Below the pieces are notes generated by a model. That model saw only the letters and a list, made by a program, of their open reading frames with translations. It was not told where the DNA came from and did not search any database. 64,000 nt of DNA from Cytobacillus dafuensis (GTDB taxonomy: Bacteria; Bacillota; Bacilli; Bacillales; Cytobacillaceae), in NCBI RefSeq assembly GCF_007995155.1, contig NZ_CP042593.1, positions 4,568,001 through 4,632,000 on the forward strand, written 5' to 3'. This document shows, one piece after another, positions 19,355 through 63,088 of the stretch (positions within the stretch are counted from its first letter, which is position 1; the number at the start of each line of letters is the position of its first letter). A program made the position numbers and the translations under genes.

Positions 19355-19391
19355 GTTATGACCACATAGCTTTGATTTTTCGTGGAAAATT

Positions 19392-20085
19392 GGAAACAAA
19401 GCTTTGTTAGTTTCCAAATTTAAAGATACTCGCGAAAAAGGTAGAAACATAAGACGACTAGTTTCCCATTTTTTGAAAAAATCGCGGAAAAGTGGAAACA
19501 AAGCTTCCGTAGTTTCAAAATTTAAAGATATTCGCAAAAAAGGTGGAAACAAATGACGACTAGTTTCCCATTTTTTGAAAAAATCGTGGAAATGTGGAAA
19601 CAAAGCTCCTTAGTTTCCAAATTTAAAGATACTCGCGAAAAAAGTGGAAACAAAAGACGACTAGTTTCCCATTTTTTAAAAAATCGTGGAAATGTGGAAA
19701 CAAAGCTTCGGTAGTCTCCAAATTTAAAGATACTCGCGAAAAAGGTGGAAACAAAAGACGACTAGTTTCCCATTTTTTGAAAAAATCGTGGAAAAGGGGA
19801 AACAAAGCTTCGTTAGTTTCCAAATTTAAAGATATTCGCGAAAAAGGTGGAAACAAAAGACGACTAGTTTCCCATTTTTAAAAAAAATCGTGGAAAAGCG
19901 GAAACAAAGCTTCGTTAGTTTCCAAATTTAAAGATATTCGCGAAAAAGGTGGAAACAAAAGACGACTAGTTTCCCATTTTTTAAAATAATCGTGGAAATG
20001 TGGAAACAAAGCTTCGGTAGTTTCCAAATTTAAAGATACTCGCGTAAAAAGTGGAAACAAAAGACGACTAGTTTCCCAGTTTCAA
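19392..20085. repeat. Tandem array of about 102-bp dimeric repeats (array 1)
   Basis: About seven units begin with GGAAACAAAGC near 19392, 19494, 19596, 19697, 19798, 19900 and 20000. Each unit is two 51-bp halves, each opening with GGAAAC-N12-GTTTCC, so every half can fold into a hairpin. Open frames of 60-98 codons run through it on the minus strand because 102 is a multiple of three, but they lack ribosome binding sites and are broken by indels. The same family forms the array at 38835-39766. Confidence 0.93.
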
Positions 20086-23705: not shown

Positions 23706-23826
23706 CCAATTGTTCACATAATTGTAATATATTTCTTTAAATATTTCTGGTATGATGGATTTAGATCAAATTAACTACATCTTTTGTCCTACTTCATATT
23801 AAATTTTAAAAATGAGGTGTAGGGAA

Positions 23827-24390
23827 ATGTATTTATTAAAGCATTATCTTGTCAATCAGGAGACATCATTGATTAAGGGTGAGTACAATCAGTACGGGAA
23901 GCTTTGTTCGAGGATATTGGAAGGGAGAAAGACATTTCTAGTCGAGTGTTCGCCAATCAAATTGCTTGATGAAACATTAAAATTCAATGGCTTCGATTAC
24001 AAGGGTGCTACGATTGGCGCGAAATCAATTCTTCGAAAAAACAGTATGTGCCCGATTGTTCTGAACCAAGCATTAGGCATTTGTATGTTCCCAATTAATT
24101 CTCCTGATAAGCACGACAACATTTGGTTTAACCCCGATCATATTGTACAAACCTTCCCCTATGGCAGTAAGACAGATGTAGAATTAAGTAATGGCGTTAT
24201 CATTCGAGTCAACTTAACATTAACCACTTTTAACAATAAACTTCAGGTTGCCCATCAATACAGAAAAATCACCCACAATAGAGGCAGACTCACCATGACC
24301 ATGATTCTGGAAGCAAAAAAAGAGCCAGTCGTCATTAAAAAAGAAAAGGGCCATTATAATTTTGACAAAATGAAGAGGGATGATGATTAG
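23827..24390 (+). CDS. comK: Competence transcription factor ComK
   Basis: A 187-residue protein recognisable as ComK by its order of motifs: YLVNQETSLI at the start, KLLDETLKFNGFDYKGA near residue 50, CPIVLNQALGICMFPINSPD in the middle, then WFNPDHIVQTFPYG and ELSNGVIIRVNLTLTTFNNK. B. subtilis ComK is 192 residues. Start chosen at the ATG at 23827, with GAGGTG 7 nt upstream. ComK binds paired AT-boxes in the minor groove and turns on DNA uptake and recombination genes, including ssbB, whose homolog here (36349-36708) has such a box. It is followed by the hom promoter without a clear terminator. Confidence 0.92.
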   Translation: MYLLKHYLVNQETSLIKGEYNQYGKLCSRILEGRKTFLVECSPIKLLDETLKFNGFDYKGATIGAKSILRKNSMCPIVLNQALGICMFPINSPDKHDNIWFNPDHIVQTFPYGSKTDVELSNGVIIRVNLTLTTFNNKLQVAHQYRKITHNRGRLTMTMILEAKKEPVVIKKEKGHYNFDKMKRDDD

Positions 24391-25989: not shown

Positions 25990-26250
25990 AATGTGGACAC
26001 GGGGGCAGGATTTCCTCCTTTCCTTGGCTTCTTTCGAGGTCAATGTGGACACAGGGGCAGAATTTCCTTCTTCCTTGGCTTCTTTCGGGCTCAATGTGGA
26101 CACGGAGGTGGGATTTTCTTCTTTCCTTGGCTTCTTTCGGGCTCAATGTGGACACGGGGGCAGAATTTCCTTCTTTCCTTGGCTTCTTTCGGGCTCAATG
26201 TGGACACGGAGGTGGGATTTTCCCCTCTCCTTGGCTTCATTACAAAGAGA
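25990..26250. repeat. Tandem array with 51-52-bp period
   Basis: AATGTGGACAC recurs at 25990, 26042, 26093, 26145 and 26197. Units combine GTGGACACGG-type, GGGCAG/AGGTGG-type and CTTTCCTTGGCTTC segments. Overlapping open frames on both strands arise from the repetition and lack ribosome binding sites. The flanks 25892-25989 and 26251-26329 hold no gene. Confidence 0.92.
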
Positions 26251-27661: not shown

Positions 27662-28268
27662 TTGGTTCTCCACCGCCGTCCATCTATTTATAAGTCTCAT
27701 TTTGTTTTTTTATAATTTTGATAATTACTTTACTTACATTATCTCTTTTTCACTTCAATTTCAATGGACTGATGAAAAGATCATTTCCGACGACAAATTT
27801 TTTTACACAAAAATAAAACCTCCTTAGCCATATAGAATTAGGAGTTGAACCTAATTCTTTGAACAAAGAAGGTTATCTGTAACAGATTATATTATAAGAC
27901 TCATACAAAGAATTATTCACCAAAGGCCTGAGGAGCTTGTTCTACTTTTACATAATAATGTAGGATTGCTTGTACAATTAAACCTCCTCATATATTATTC
28001 TTCCAATCAAATAATAATAGTAGATGAAGTAACTGTAGAGTAAAGCCCTGCGTACATTGGACACCTACTGCTCAATGTGCATGATGAATAAGTGTGGCTG
28101 ATTCAATTAAGAAAATTTTTGATTTTATAGAGGATATTCGAAAAATAATGCGAATTTATTAATAATAAATATCGTTAAAATCGTAGTTTTTTGAAAACTC
28201 ATGCAATTTCACCTAAATAAATTATTTGTGATAATATCATTGTAGAGAGAGTTGAAAAGAGGGATATT
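27662..28268. other. Intergenic region between divergent genes, no gene seen
   Basis: About 600 bp, AT-rich. Weak inverted repeats: AACCTCCT/AGGAGTT around 27825-27860, and ATTCG/CGAAT around 28137-28156 about 110 bp before the HTH-TPR gene, the latter a possible operator. A -10-like TAATAT lies near 28233. No credible ORF. Confidence 0.5.
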
Positions 28269-29153
28269 ATGAAACTAGATGGATATTTATTCGGTGAGAT
28301 GCTTCAATCCTTTCGCCAGTTTAAAAATTTGACTGTAGAAGAATTAGCAGAAGGTATTTGTACAGAGGAAGAATTAATATCTTTTGAGAAAGAGAGAGCA
28401 TATCCAACTCTCGATGTTCTTTACAAAATTGCTATCAAGCTCGAGGTGGAGTTAACACACTTCCTTGATATTGCATCAAAATCAACGGTTAGCTATCCAA
28501 ATGCCGTTATCCAAATCATTGAAAAATATAAAAGAGAACGCAATTATGAAGCTATCAACACGATCGTTCAGCAAGAGAAGAGCAATCCTCTATTCAATCA
28601 AAAACCATTAAAGCAGTATTTGATGTGGAATCAAGGGATTTGTGCATTTTATTTAGATGGAAATCCAGATAAAGCATTTGATACCCTAAGCAAGGCAATA
28701 GCCATAACGAATCCTAGAAGAAGTTCCCTTTCAGAAAGGGAGATAGAGATATTGATTAGTATCGGAATTATCTTTTATGAAACACAAAATTACCGAAGTG
28801 CAATTACCATTTTTTTGGAAGCATTAAATAACATAGAGAAGCTGCCATACATCAAAAATATGAAAGGGAAATTAAGAATATTATTTGGGTTATCACAAGC
28901 ATTAACAGAAATAGGGGAATATAAAGAATCACTTACTTATTGCCATAAGGGGCTTAATCTTTGTATTAATGAGGAATTACTTTATCTTTTAAATGAATTT
29001 CATTATCAAATTGGTGAAAACAACATCAAAATGGGTGAAATTGAAAAAGGAAAAGAATACTTAGAGGAGTGCCTCCACCTCTTAAAGTTAGAAAGAAAAA
29101 CAAAAATTCAAAAGATTATAGAGGGAGAGATTGAAAAACTACTAAATTCTTGA
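28269..29153 (+). CDS. PlcR-like HTH-TPR regulator, probable peptide receptor (RNPP family)
   Basis: A 294-residue protein. Residues about 6-65 form an XRE-type helix-turn-helix (GEMLQSFRQFKNLTVEELAE, then the recognition helix in TEEELISFEKERAYPTLDVL). Residues about 75-290 are consecutive TPR-like helical pairs (YLDGNPDKAFDTLSKAIAI, FYETQNYRSAITIFLEAL, LTEIGEYKESLTYCHKGLNL, KMGEIEKGKEYLEECLHLL). Length and layout match PlcR (285 residues) more than Rap or NprR. RNPP regulators bind re-imported oligopeptides in the TPR groove and thereby change DNA binding. ATG start behind GAGGGA. The gene for its likely cognate peptide follows after 48 bp on the same strand without a terminator, so cotranscription is likely. 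Confidence 0.88.
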   Translation: MKLDGYLFGEMLQSFRQFKNLTVEELAEGICTEEELISFEKERAYPTLDVLYKIAIKLEVELTHFLDIASKSTVSYPNAVIQIIEKYKRERNYEAINTIVQQEKSNPLFNQKPLKQYLMWNQGICAFYLDGNPDKAFDTLSKAIAITNPRRSSLSEREIEILISIGIIFYETQNYRSAITIFLEALNNIEKLPYIKNMKGKLRILFGLSQALTEIGEYKESLTYCHKGLNLCINEELLYLLNEFHYQIGENNIKMGEIEKGKEYLEECLHLLKLERKTKIQKIIEGEIEKLLNS

Positions 29154-29201
29154 TACAATAAATTACAGAAATTATAAAATTTTGAGAAAGTTGGTGAAAA
29201 A

Positions 29202-29438
29202 ATGAAAAAGTTACTAGCTGGTACGGCTCTAGCACTAACTATTCTTGGTATGAGCGCATTTAGCTCAAATTCTACTGACTTAGCTGGATACCCTACTCAA
29301 CATGGTGTTGAATTACAAGGATACCCTACTCAACATGGTGTTGAATTACAAGGATATCCTACTCAGCACGGTGTTGAATTACAAGGATATCCTACTCAGC
29401 ATGGCGTTGAATTATTAGGATACCCTACTCAACATTAA
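29202..29438 (+). CDS. Multi-copy peptide pheromone precursor (candidate)
   Basis: A 78-residue exported pre-peptide. Residues 1-20 form a short signal peptide (MKKLLAGTALALTILGMSAF). Residues 29-78 hold five copies of GYPTQH (29-34, 40-45, 51-56, 62-67, 73-78) in an 11-residue period, separated by GVELQ or GVELL; the chain ends exactly at the His of copy five. Copies differ only at synonymous codon positions, apart from the residue before the Gly (A, Q, Q, Q, L). RNPP pro-peptides such as PapR and NprX are small exported precursors encoded just after the receptor, with the active peptide at the C-terminus; here the signal would be amplified five-fold. The likely mature form is a hexa- to octapeptide ending in PTQH. 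Function is inferred, not proven. Confidence 0.82.
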   Translation: MKKLLAGTALALTILGMSAFSSNSTDLAGYPTQHGVELQGYPTQHGVELQGYPTQHGVELQGYPTQHGVELLGYPTQH

Positions 29439-29443
29439 TTAAT

Positions 29444-29479
29444 AAAAAGCGGGTGATTACATAGTCACCCGCTTTTTTT
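29444..29479. terminator. Terminator of the receptor-pheromone cassette
   Basis: AAAAAGCGGGTGA / TCACCCGCTTTTT, 13-bp perfect stem, 8-nt loop, T-run on the plus strand, 6 bp after the pheromone stop. Confidence 0.95.
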
Positions 29480-30568: not shown

Positions 30569-30650
30569 CAAATAGTAAATCTCTGAAACATTCTTGTTAT
30601 CTTCCTCTGCTATCATACTTTGTACAAGCAACTTAAAGGAGAATACTATT

Positions 30651-31205
30651 TTGAAAAAAATACTACTATTTGTAAGCACTTGTGTTTTTCTACTATTCGG
30701 ATACTCTAACAATACTTTTGCAGCTGCGAATACATATCAAGTAAAAAAAGGAGATACTCTTTGGTCAATTGCTAAAGAGAACCATATTTCTGTTCAACAA
30801 TTAAAGTCTTGGAACAACTTAAAATCAGATACCATTAAAACTAATCAAGTGTTAAAGGTAGCATCAGCTACTAAGACAGAAAACAAACCTGCACCTCCTG
30901 TAAAAACTGCCAGCTTTAAAGAAATTACTGTCAAAGCCACTGCTTATACGGCAAACTGTAAAAGTTGCAGCGGTATTACATATACAGGCGTCAACTTAAA
31001 AAAGAATCCAAAAGCGAAGGTCATCTCGGTCGATCCAAAAGTGATTCCACTTGGTTCAAAAGTGTTTGTACCTGGATATGGGGAAGCCATTGCCGCTGAC
31101 ACAGGTGGTGCTGTGAAAGGGAACAAAATTGATGTATTTATCCCATCTAAACAGCAAGCATTACAATGGGGCAACAAGACCATTAAGATAAAAGTATATA
31201 AATAA
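30651..31205 (+). CDS. Secreted LysM-3D domain cell-wall protein (YocH-like)
   Basis: A 184-residue exported protein. Start chosen at the TTG at 30651 with AAAGGAGAA upstream. The signal peptide is about residues 1-25 (ILLFVSTCVFLLFGYSN...FAA). One LysM domain at about 27-71 (YQVKKGDTLWSIAKENHISV, ending TNQVLKV) binds peptidoglycan. A Pro/Lys linker leads to a C-terminal 3D domain (about 88-183) with conserved Asp residues in SVDPKVIPLGSKVFVPG, AADTGG and IDVFIP; this fold occurs in YocH, YuiC and lytic transglycosylases such as MltA. A muralytic role in wall turnover is likely. Monocistronic between two terminators. Confidence 0.9.
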   Translation: MKKILLFVSTCVFLLFGYSNNTFAAANTYQVKKGDTLWSIAKENHISVQQLKSWNNLKSDTIKTNQVLKVASATKTENKPAPPVKTASFKEITVKATAYTANCKSCSGITYTGVNLKKNPKAKVISVDPKVIPLGSKVFVPGYGEAIAADTGGAVKGNKIDVFIPSKQQALQWGNKTIKIKVYK

Positions 31206-38834: not shown

Positions 38835-39766
38835 GTGGAAACAAGAGCCGCCTTGTTTCCCATTTTTTTAAAAAAATAGTGGAAAAGCGGAAACAAAGAT
38901 TCGTTAGTTTCCAAATTAAAAAATATTCGCGAAAATGATGGAAACAAGAGCCACTTAGTTTCCCATTTTTTTAAAAAATCATGGAAAAGTGGAAACAATG
39001 ATTCGTTAGTTTCCATATTTAAAGATATTCACAAAAAAAAAATGGAAACTAGAGCCACATAGCTTCCCATTTTCTAAAAAAATCATGGAAAAGTGGAAAC
39101 AAAGACTCGTTAGTTTCCAAATTTAAAGATATTCGCAAAAAAAAATGGAAACAAGAGCCGCTTAGTTTCCCATTTTTTTAAAAAATCATGGAAAAGTGGA
39201 AACAAAGATTCGTTAGTTTCCAAATTTAAAGATATTCGTGAAAAAAATGGAGGCAAGAGCTGCCTAGTTTCCCATTTTTTTAAAAAAATCATGGAAAAGT
39301 GAAAACAAAGATTCGTTAGTTTCCAAATTTAAAGATATTCGCAAAAATAATGGAAATAAGAGCTGCCTAGTTTCCCATTTTTTTAAAAAATCGTGGAAAA
39401 GTGAAAACAAAGATTCGTTAGTTTCCAAATTTAAAGATATTCGCGAAAATAATGGAAATAATTGCCGCTTAGTTTCCCATTTTTTTAAAAAATCATGGAA
39501 AAGTGGAAACAAAGACTCGTTAGTTTCCAAATTTAAAGATATTCGCGAAAATAATGGAAACAAGAGCCGCTTAGTTTCCCATTTTTTTAAAAAATCATGG
39601 AAAAGCGGAAACAAAGATTCGTTAGTTTCCAAATTTAAAGATATTAGCAAAATAATGGAAATAATAGCCGCCTAGTTTCCCATTTTTAAAAAAAATCGTG
39701 GAAAAGCGGAAACAAAGATTCGTTAGTTTCCAAATTTAAAGATATTCGCGAAAAAGGGTTATTGGG
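38835..39766. repeat. Tandem array of about 102-104-bp dimeric repeats (array 2)
   Basis: About nine units of the same family as array 1, with GGAAACAAAGATTCG-type halves near 38889, 38991, 39095, 39198, 39301, 39403, 39505, 39606 and 39708, alternating with GGAAACAAGAGCCGC-type halves. Each half carries GGAAAC and GTTTCC arms. Minus-strand open frames of up to 128 codons result from the multiple-of-three period, without ribosome binding sites. The flank 38528-38834 has no gene. Confidence 0.93.
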
Positions 39767-52489: not shown

Positions 52490-52740
52490 GAATACAAACT
52501 CCCTTCATAAATCACCGCCAATTTTTTTACAATCCGCCTTTAATATTAGCATTAATTTCCCTTTAAGAATAGGAATTACTCTTGCAAGAGCGATGAAAGA
52601 TAAGAAAATTGTGATTGATTACTGTGAGTAGGGTAAAATTGAATTAACGGACTTCGATTGCACAAGTTCGTAACTGATGTACTCGGAAATTAGAGTGGTG
52701 GGAAACCATCAATACTGATTGATGACCAAGGATCTCTAAA
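52490..52740. other. Intergenic stretch upstream of the 52-bp array
   Basis: No gene. The last 60 bp (ATCAATACTGATTGATGACC region) may be a degenerate start of the repeat array. Confidence 0.45.
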
Positions 52741-53020
52741 TCTCGGTGAGAGGGGCACCATTAACCCGGTTTGGTTACCGGAGTTCTCAAATTTTCGGCG
52801 AGACGGGCACCATTAACCCAGTTTGATTACCGGGGTTCTCAAAATCTCGGCGAGACGGGCATCAATAACCCGGTTTGGTTACCGGGGTTCTCGAAATCTC
52901 GGCGAGACGGGCATCAATAACCCGGTTTGGTTACCGGGGTTCTCGAAATTTCGGCGAGACGGGCACCATTAACCCGGTTTGGTTACCGGTGTCCTCGAAG
53001 TTTCGGCGGGGCAGACACCA
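52741..53020. repeat. Tandem array with 52-bp period
   Basis: GGGCA recurs at 52753, 52805, 52857, 52909 and 52961 with a degenerate sixth near 53013, an exact 52-bp period. Units read GGCGAGACGGGCACCATTAA, CCCGGTTTGGTTACCGG, GGTTCTCGAAAT. ACCCGGT/ACCGGGG and TCTCG/CGAGA arms give two possible hairpins per unit. A through-running plus-strand frame has no ribosome binding site. 53021-53315 shows no gene. Confidence 0.94.
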
Positions 53021-61813: not shown

Positions 61814-63088
61814 TTACACCTCCACATCATACGGTTCATAGTCTTTTCTCAACGGATGGCCAACCCATTCTTCCCCAAGCATAATCCGATGGAGGTTCGG
61901 GTGTCCCGTAAAGCGAATACCTAACAAATCATATGCTTCACATTCAGGCCAATTTGCTCCTGCCCATAATGGCTGCAATGATTCAATTGTTGGTTCATTA
62001 CGATCAATCTTCACTTTTAATGCAACAGACTGGCTATTTCTATATGAGTAAAGGTGAACATACACTTCCATATGTGTTTCGAAGTCTGTCCCATGGATCT
62101 CAGATAAATAATCAAATCCTAACTGTTCATTATATTTTAGAAATTCTGCCACTTTAAAATATGACTCTCTCTTAGCTACCAAGGTTGGAACATCCTTGGA
62201 AAGACTATTGATATAGTAATCTTCTAAAACATCTTGTCCGAGATTCTCTTCAATGACTTTCACATATTTATCAAGATAAGGCTTGTTTGGTGATGGTTTA
62301 CTCTCTTCAGCCGGCTCTGCTTCGACCTTCCCACCAGCTAATTTCGCTTTTGCTGCTGCGGCCGCGGCGGCTTTTGCTTTTGCTGCAGCTATCGCTTTTG
62401 CTTTTTCGTCATCACCTGCTCCGCCTTCAGCTTTTGCGGTTGCGGCGGCTTTTGCCTTTGCAGCGGCTGCAGCCTTTGCTTTCGCGGCAGCAATCGCTTT
62501 AGCCTTTTCGTCATCTCCAGCTGCGTCAGATTGCTTTGCTAGAGCAGCTGCTTTCGCTTTTGCTGCTGCAGCTGCCTTTGCCTTTGCGGCTGCGGCGGCT
62601 TTTTGTTTCGCTACATCAAGGTCTTCTGCTGGTGCTTCCTCTTTTGATTCGACCTGTTCCTTCGCCTTCATTTTGGCTAGTGCGGCTGCCTTTGCCTTTG
62701 CAGCGGCGGCGGCTTTTTGTTTTGCCATATCAAGGTCTTCTGCTGGTGCTTCCTCTTTTGATTCGACCTGTTCCTTCGCCTTCATTTTGGCTAGTGCGGC
62801 TGCCTTTGCCTTTGCAGCGGCGGCGGCTTTTTGTTTTGCTATATCAAGGTCTTCTGCTGGTGCTTCCTCTTTTGATCCGACCTGTTCCTTCGCCTTCATT
62901 TTGGCTAGTGCGGCTGCCTTTGCCTTTGCAGCGGCGGCGGCTTTTTGTTTTGCTATATCAAGGTCTTCTGCTGGTATTTCCTCTTTTGATTCGACCTGTT
63001 CCTTCGCCTTCATTTTGGCTAGTGCGGCTGCCTTTGCCTTTGCAGCAGCCTCTTTTTTTAACTGCTCAAGATCCTTCTCCCCGCTCAT
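61814..63088 (-). CDS. nuoC: NADH-quinone oxidoreductase subunit C with long Ala/Lys repeat extension
   Basis: A 424-residue protein. The C-terminal 150 or so residues are the NuoC domain (LVAKRESYFKVAEFLKYNEQ, VKIDRNEPTIESLQPLWAGA, then NWPECEAYDLLGIRFTGHPN, LHRIMLGEEWVGHPLRKDYE). The N-terminal 270 residues are an Ala/Lys-rich, probably helical extension: four tandem 38-residue units of the type KMKAKEQVESKEEAPAEDLD separated by AAAAAKAKAAALA, then a degenerate poly-Ala/Lys stretch. NuoC proteins are normally about 180-220 residues, although shorter Ala/Lys extensions are remembered from other Bacillus species. DNA units repeat at exactly 114 bp, so copy number may vary between strains. Confidence 0.94.
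   Translation of the reverse strand: MSGEKDLEQLKKEAAAKAKAAALAKMKAKEQVESKEEIPAEDLDIAKQKAAAAAKAKAAALAKMKAKEQVGSKEEAPAEDLDIAKQKAAAAAKAKAAALAKMKAKEQVESKEEAPAEDLDMAKQKAAAAAKAKAAALAKMKAKEQVESKEEAPAEDLDVAKQKAAAAAKAKAAAAAKAKAAALAKQSDAAGDDEKAKAIAAAKAKAAAAAKAKAAATAKAEGGAGDDEKAKAIAAAKAKAAAAAAAKAKLAGGKVEAEPAEESKPSPNKPYLDKYVKVIEENLGQDVLEDYYINSLSKDVPTLVAKRESYFKVAEFLKYNEQLGFDYLSEIHGTDFETHMEVYVHLYSYRNSQSVALKVKIDRNEPTIESLQPLWAGANWPECEAYDLLGIRFTGHPNLHRIMLGEEWVGHPLRKDYEPYDVEV

Follow-up and report, generated by a model that had tools for sequence, protein, structure and literature searches.

The window considered here is a stretch of 64,000 nucleotides from Cytobacillus dafuensis (contig NZ_CP042593.1, positions 4,568,001 to 4,632,000). 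It contains a gene for a 294-residue PlcR-like receptor, with an N-terminal helix-turn-helix (HTH) domain and a C-terminal domain of tetratricopeptide repeats (TPR), followed after 48 bp on the same strand by a gene for a 78-residue precursor with five exact copies of the hexapeptide GYPTQH. An initial annotation had described this pair from the letters alone, and the receptor, the gap and the five copies were all confirmed from the sequence and its open reading frames (ORFs). The same holds for the strong terminator that was said to close the pair: its hairpin folds with -21.5 kcal/mol (z -6.67) and none of 200 shuffles is equally good. A simple consensus scan does not list this terminator, probably because the T-run is drawn into the stem. 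We propose, with a probability of roughly 0.8, that the two genes form a quorum-sensing pair of the PlcR/PapR type, in which a single precursor holds several identical signals for the TPR receptor encoded upstream.

The pair and its repeated core

The five cores follow each other at a period of 11 residues and are separated by spacers GVELQ or GVELL; Tandem Repeats Finder reports a 33-bp unit in 4.5 copies with 92% matches and a score of 244. The residue directly before GYPTQH is A in the first copy, Q in copies 2-4 and L in the fifth. Codon differences among the cores are all synonymous (TAC/TAT, CAA/CAG, CAT/CAC), and identity of the copies is therefore not merely a product of recent DNA duplication. 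Positions of all features are collected in Table 1.

Table 1. Features of the receptor-precursor locus, in window coordinates
Feature	Position	Strand	Basis
Promoter-like site of the receptor gene, TTCACC-16-GATAAT, TG before the second hexamer	28208..28235	+	consensus scan, weak (15 such sites in the region against 8.9 expected)
PlcR-like receptor gene, 294 aa, N-terminal HTH and C-terminal TPR (RNPP_C)	28269..29153	+	ORF translation
Recognition helix of the HTH, codons 33-40, EEELISFE	28365..28388	+	helix H33-40 in structure model
Predicted TPR peptide-binding domain, residues 76-293	28494..29147	+	RNPP_C match 84-283, helices in model
Codons R89, E90, R91	28533..28541	+	R89/R91 align with PlcR Lys87/Lys89
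Codon E243	28995..28997	+	aligns with PlcR Gln237
Pheromone precursor gene (putative), 78 aa	29202..29438	+	ORF and homologues
Putative export leader, 28 residues before first core	29202..29285	+	hydrophobic N-terminus, by inspection; leader length before the first core is exactly 28 residues in 30 of 43 arrays
GYPTQH copy 1	29286..29303	+	
GYPTQH copy 2	29319..29336	+	
GYPTQH copy 3	29352..29369	+	
GYPTQH copy 4	29385..29402	+	
GYPTQH copy 5, stop codon directly after	29418..29435	+	
Intrinsic terminator hairpin	29444..29477	+	folding against shuffles

The pair is conserved as a unit. In a set of 61 genomes (that of C. dafuensis and 60 relatives), 29 receptors with at least 42% identity were found in 25 of the 36 genomes of the same genus, the nearest being that of Cytobacillus citreus (90% identical), and a repeat array follows the receptor in all 29 cases. 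Twenty-four of these arrays were recovered independently by a search with the precursor; the other five were read by translation (G015, G012, G016, G020:C17, which is L071, and G022:C83, which is L072). Conversely, each of the 27 matches of the precursor search is directly preceded by a receptor gene of the multi-copy branch. Because every examined relative of the branch has the same layout, the arrangement is not due to chance. A receptor family never accompanied by such a precursor would have spoken against the pairing, and the relatives came out in its favour.

A further scan of relatives' genomes, many of them shared with the first set, gave 80 loci. The receptor tree has 80 rows, namely 79 receptors found with the window query and a PlcR fragment on a long branch; as its rows include no NprR, Rap, Rgg or AimR, the grouping is relative to PlcR-like receptors only. 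Forty-three rows form one branch (support 100/95) that consists solely of multi-copy systems with 2-16 copies, from Cytobacillus, Mesobacillus, Robertmurraya, Peribacillus saganii and related strains. Together with three loci left out of the tree (L040, L045 and L065) this makes 46 loci, 45 of which contain at least two full copies; in L065, unknown bases come after one full copy. The highest number, 16 copies of GLPTQH, occurs in C. purgationiresistens. Nine relatives outside the branch (Priestia, Metabacillus and others) have one copy each, and on these 52 rows the step from one copy to many is required only once. Behind the Priestia receptors sit single-copy precursors of 39 residues ending in GLPNQH or GLPSQH.

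Within the 43 arrays, the cores are under strong purifying selection. The ratio of nonsynonymous to synonymous differences (pN/pS) is 0.016 in the core and 0.835 in the four codons before it, and a looser unit finder gives 0.040 for the core. This selection is partly inherent in the pattern by which cores were counted; nevertheless, the values remain low, at 0.029 and 0.093, for positions 1 and 4, which the pattern leaves free. Two arrays were added by eye, L070 (seven units, DIPSLY once and then DIPSLH) and L073 (two DLPSLH), and L087 and L088, false pattern matches in a carboxypeptidase-like ORF, were excluded. The cores are identical in amino acids in 38 of the 43 arrays and all 38 contain synonymous differences. 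At least 24 changes of the core code are required on the receptor tree and the arrays are still near-uniform, thus the copies must be rewritten together. Across the 43 arrays, uniformity and joint rewriting of the code between species coexist with high synonymous divergence (pS ~0.6).

Peptide code and receptor pocket

The core has invariant Pro at position 3 and invariant His at position 6 throughout the 52 systems. Position 5 varies: 37 systems have Q there, nine have E and the remaining six have L, I, H or R. The units of Mesobacillus read ADLPSQH. According to PMC3673130, PapR pherotypes are ADLPFEF, SDMPFEF, NEVPFEF and SDLPFEH, and that of PapRa is CSIPYEY; PMC6568020 names Pro4, Glu6 and Phe7 as critical PapR residues. 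Compared on these terms, GYPTQH, DLPSQH and GIPSEH match PapR SDLPFEH at the reported critical positions. The initial annotation saw no resemblance of the peptide to PapR, which the comparison with these pherotypes contradicts. In the literature text searched, DLPSQH, GIPSEH, GLPTQH, GLPNQH and YPVQH were not found, and YPTQH occurred once, in an unrelated venom paper.

PapR-like peptides occur also outside the branch. Single-copy peptides ending in RLPYQH, DIPFHH or TLPFQH lie beside outgroup receptors; a scan of 25 outgroup and intermediate loci gave a convincing one in four (L083, L090, L091 and L098), L093 has one further downstream, and none was found in L084, L089 and L097. In the Aneurinibacillus loci L090, L091 and L098, the exported peptide ending in RLPYQH is encoded on the opposite strand beside the PlcR-like receptor. 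Another arrangement is seen in L085-L088, where the gene of a PlcR-like receptor with canonical HTH immediately precedes a large secreted ORF, zinc carboxypeptidase-like by eye.

The identification of the receptor as PlcR-like, made in the initial annotation, is borne out by several lines of evidence. The protein matches RNPP_C, PlcR is its best match both by sequence and by fold among the matches listed, and it has the architecture of the PlcR subfamily, i.e. an N-terminal HTH and a five-TPR C-terminal domain in ~285-300 residues. In the structure model, the HTH fold is kept (H8-69) and TPR helices lie behind it. The adjoining precursor, judged exported by inspection, has a PapR-like core with Pro, Glu/Gln and a final aromatic residue or His. 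To this the adjacency in all 29 cases and the covariation of peptide and receptor are added.

The covariation concerns position 5. In PMC6568020, PapR Glu6 is described as contacting PlcR Lys89, Gln237 and Tyr275, with ionic pairs to Lys87 and Lys89. In our alignment, Lys87, Lys89 and Gln237 correspond to R89, R91 and E243; for Tyr275, no counterpart could be assigned. Nine systems carry E at position 5; they form one tree branch, and all nine have W91 and N or S at 243, while all 29 systems of the 43-row branch with Q at position 5 have R91 and E243. Only six of the 294 columns separate the two groups fully. All four changes of R89 fall on branches on which peptide position 5 changes too (rank 1 of 291 columns, against a background of 16.6%, the overall share of changes that fall on such branches); G207 ranks third, E243 fifth and R91, with one change, 26th. 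For peptide positions 4 and 2, none of R89, R91, E243 and G207 stands out. By alignment, then, the residues predicted to take the place of the Glu6 contacts described for PlcR change together with peptide position 5.

Several points weigh against the proposed PlcR/PapR-type pair. The covariation rests on seven peptide changes, and a test on independent pairs gave four in the same direction, none opposite and one without difference (p 0.125, too few pairs). R91 changes only once, and L052 (HH) and L101 (IH) changed position 5 with no change at R89, R91 and E243. Y52, at which no contact was expected, ranks second and equals R89 in score. In PlcR, Asn201 anchors the peptide. Neither this residue nor Lys204 is kept here: they are replaced by Gly207 and Gln210, with G, A or S and Q, respectively, in 43 of 43 branch receptors, and the Gly suggests that the mode of binding is not fully PlcR-like. 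A role like that of Asn201 is reported for PlcRa N205 (PMC3519770). When receptor and precursor were predicted as one read-through chain, no copy was placed in the groove; the precursor reached a model confidence (predicted local distance difference test) of ~25, so that the prediction says nothing about binding. Finally, the region upstream of the window receptor matches the PlcR box at 7 of 10 specified bases at best.

The acidic recognition helix and the output

The initial annotation assumed that the HTH is functional in reading DNA. The fold is indeed kept, but the recognition helix is acidic and atypical, which makes DNA reading doubtful. Its region reads C-T-E-E-E-L-I-S-F-E in the window versus C-T-Q-A-Q-I-S-K-I-E in most relatives outside the branch. 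An acid within positions 33-35, 37 and 38 is present in 43 of 43 multi-copy receptors (always including D or E at position 35), in none of eight single-copy and in none of 24 outgroup receptors. The motif QAQIS is kept in all eight of the former and, with one letter varying in some, in all 24 of the latter. The HTH has a mean net charge of -4.7 in the branch, compared with -0.1 for nine single-copy rows (including L101) and +1.0 for 25 outgroup rows (including PlcR). Within the genome of C. dafuensis, 27 other HTH_3 matches were found; in the 22 that were compared, after five short ones were left out, no acid occupies the equivalents of E33-E35. Acids are present, too, in L101 and in three rows of Peribacillus type that lie just outside the branch, so the helix changed before or together with the multiplication of copies.

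A PlcR-type recognition helix reading a PlcR box was thus not found here. Neither in the window nor at 54 loci do the 400 nt that precede the receptor gene contain a full match to the box (best 6-9 of 10 specified bases, in a scan made without shuffle control). Alignments of the upstream regions of six and seven loci show conservation only near the start codon and no common operator, therefore we propose no regulon. Direct operator reading by the acidic helix is doubtful on sequence grounds. As the helix lacks residues conserved in most relatives, the receptor may act via a protein partner or read a changed DNA site.

The first of these options deserves consideration as an alternative for the output. 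The receptor would no longer read DNA, its HTH would have become a module for protein contact or DNA mimicry, and a protein target would be controlled by the pheromone in a Rap-like manner. We regard this as a serious candidate whose chances nonetheless fall somewhat below even. Besides the uniform presence of acids in the multi-copy receptors, the charge and the contrast to the other HTH_3 domains of the genome, it is favoured by the manner of sequence change: identity of the recognition helix falls from 90% in the outgroup to 55% in the branch, while mean identity within the branch is 53.7% for the HTH and 52.1% for the TPR domain. An HTH as conserved as the TPR domain has to be kept for something, i.e. 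it looks repurposed rather than decaying. There is also a precedent, since loss of the HTH founded the Rap subfamily according to PMC12700828. On the other hand, the domain still folds as HTH and passes the Pfam threshold of HTH_3, if barely (23.7 versus 23 bits). K19 was gained and is kept in 42 of 43 multi-copy receptors, which leaves room for another mode of DNA binding. Moreover, the helix motif was gone before multi-copy arrays appeared (L101, L084, L089 and L097 are without it), and no protein partner is known.

A further possibility, which we consider unlikely, is that the acidic-HTH receptor cooperates with, or opposes, a second PlcR-like receptor whose HTH is normal, in a mixed dimer or through a shared signal. 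In 14 of the 25 same-genus genomes with a multi-copy receptor, a second PlcR-like gene does lie within ~2 kb. In seven loci (L037, L038, L039, L041, L043, L063 and L067) the helix of this adjoining receptor is canonical and no PapR-like ORF follows its gene; in L060 the receptor is in fragments. C. dafuensis itself has exactly one other RNPP_C protein (G000:C1:1547593-1548207; L146:11543-12451), with a near-canonical helix. An Opp-like transporter cassette is located a few kb away from its gene, and a PapR-like peptide was not seen there. Such a partner is not obligatory, because G016, G021 and G028 seem to be without a full-length second receptor, and we dropped it as a general rule; the adjacency may also be chance retention of old duplicates.

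Neighbouring genes were considered as targets and rejected: in a clustering of neighbours at 53 loci, only receptor and precursor are common to the whole branch. A LysM-3D protein (window 30594-31205) is near the pair in 15 of the 53 loci in varying orientation, perhaps through plain synteny. A gene for a ComK-family competence regulator (window 23812-24390, 115 bits) precedes the pair by about 4 kb. The window contains also several tandem repeat arrays. Two of them, at 19380-20082 and 38836-39754, are closely similar, with 102-bp units and GGAAAC/GTTTCC inverted pieces. A 52/103-bp array occupies 25990-26238, between the genes for homoserine dehydrogenase and serine dehydratase alpha-chain; a 52-bp array is present at 52733-53008 and long repeats with 102-114-bp units at 62373-63046.

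Interpretation and relation to known systems

Layout, conservation, selection on the copies, receptor covariation and the PlcR-like fold were computed; for export, cutting, uptake and binding, we infer the following course. The precursor would be exported and cut by extracellular proteases into about five identical signals, either GYPTQH or a heptapeptide with one residue more in front. An oligopeptide permease would take the signals back up; the genome of C. dafuensis (4.92 Mb) has 12 SBP_bac_5 matches in addition to the Opp-like cassette. Inside the cell, the signal would bind the TPR domain in the pose of PapR, its position 5 (Gln here, Glu in PapR) presumably held by R89, R91 and E243. Five copies would raise the yield of signal per precursor, and selection would keep them alike in amino acids. 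The output would pass through a protein partner or an altered DNA site.

One might object that only a C-terminal copy is active, as in PapR, and that the others are by-products of repeat expansion. The last core is the end of the protein in 24 of 43 arrays, as it is in the window. In the other 19 arrays, further residues come after the last core, so that no core is C-terminal there and cleavage would be needed on both sides; at most internal junctions, the residue after the core is S or G. In addition, likeness of all copies in spite of synonymous divergence is unexpected if most of them were inactive, and for Rap105 and Rap3T both copies are reported to be made and active (PMC11343458). We thus find a single active copy improbable, slightly more so than a second receptor. 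It is more improbable still that the repeat protein is a structural, antimicrobial or metal-binding secreted peptide merely located beside a regulator: it is a low-complexity exported repeat with many His, but each precursor match is directly behind a branch receptor, the core matches PapR and covaries with the receptor pocket, and single-copy relatives sit behind Priestia receptors.

The closest known system is PlcR-PapR of the Bacillus cereus group. In both, the receptor combines an HTH with five TPRs, its gene is directly followed on the same strand by that of the precursor, the peptide core has the form x-hydrophobic-P-x-E/Q-H/F, and the reported sites of Glu6 contact (Lys87, Lys89 and Gln237 in PlcR) align with R89, R91 and E243; PlcR is also the best fold match. 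The differences are considerable: identity to PlcR-like outgroups is 33-38% or lower, there are several copies instead of one, Gly stands for Asn201, the recognition helix is acidic and a PlcR box is missing upstream. PlcRa-PapRa7 (CSIPYEY) is a pair of a PlcR paralogue and a PapR-like peptide whose active part is internal rather than C-terminal; unlike here, it has one copy, papRa is upstream, and binding to the abrB2 promoter was demonstrated (PMC3519770). Rap phosphatases would resemble the window receptor as TPR pheromone receptors without DNA reading, if the acidic helix is so interpreted, but they have a three-helix bundle and no HTH, and act on Spo0F or ComA, whereas the HTH fold is kept here. 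NprR differs by nine TPRs in addition to the HTH and a length of ~420 residues. The phage receptor AimR, with a degenerate nine-TPR fold, is not among the 50 structures listed as matches, and the genes around the window receptor are chromosomal.

Several near-identical or identical pheromones per exported precursor are known from Phr105, Phr3T and other RRNPPA propeptides, and the five copies here fit this description. Multi-copy propeptides with up to six copies were published for AimR, NprR, PlcR and Rap, including three of 15 large PlcR propeptides (PMC9765709), and Phr propeptides have up to eight copies, with release of active copies shown in two Rap cases (PMC11343458). The statement that such precursors usually hold one copy thus stands, with these published exceptions, and the design analogous to fungal alpha-factor, suggested initially, is not new in itself. 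Among the published systems multi-copy propeptides are a minority within their subfamily, while here they make up a whole branch with 2-16 copies; the three PlcR propeptides of PMC9765709 could be members of it. Literature searches on PlcR-PapR in these genera and on degenerate DNA-binding domains, which covered sources other than subscription papers and supplements, found no report of the branch. In the searches made, precursors with 10-16 copies and PlcR-type receptors whose recognition helix is acidic were likewise not found, and these are, relative to the literature found, what is new.

Why some pheromone precursors carry identical copies was stated as an open question (PMC11343458). The branch presents a natural series for it: 2-16 copies, at least 24 code changes, synonymous divergence under constant amino acids, and receptor changes that match. 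Dose, code switching and receptor specificity thereby become testable pair by pair. More tentatively, and with more doubt than for the loss of DNA reading taken by itself, a whole PlcR-type branch may have abandoned operator reading and converted its HTH to an acidic surface for protein contact or DNA mimicry, as a five-TPR counterpart of Rap with 2-16 identical signals, whose codes are rewritten jointly with the pocket following. If the acidic helix does mean lost DNA reading, the branch would show a transcription-factor receptor becoming a protein switch with its HTH fold retained.
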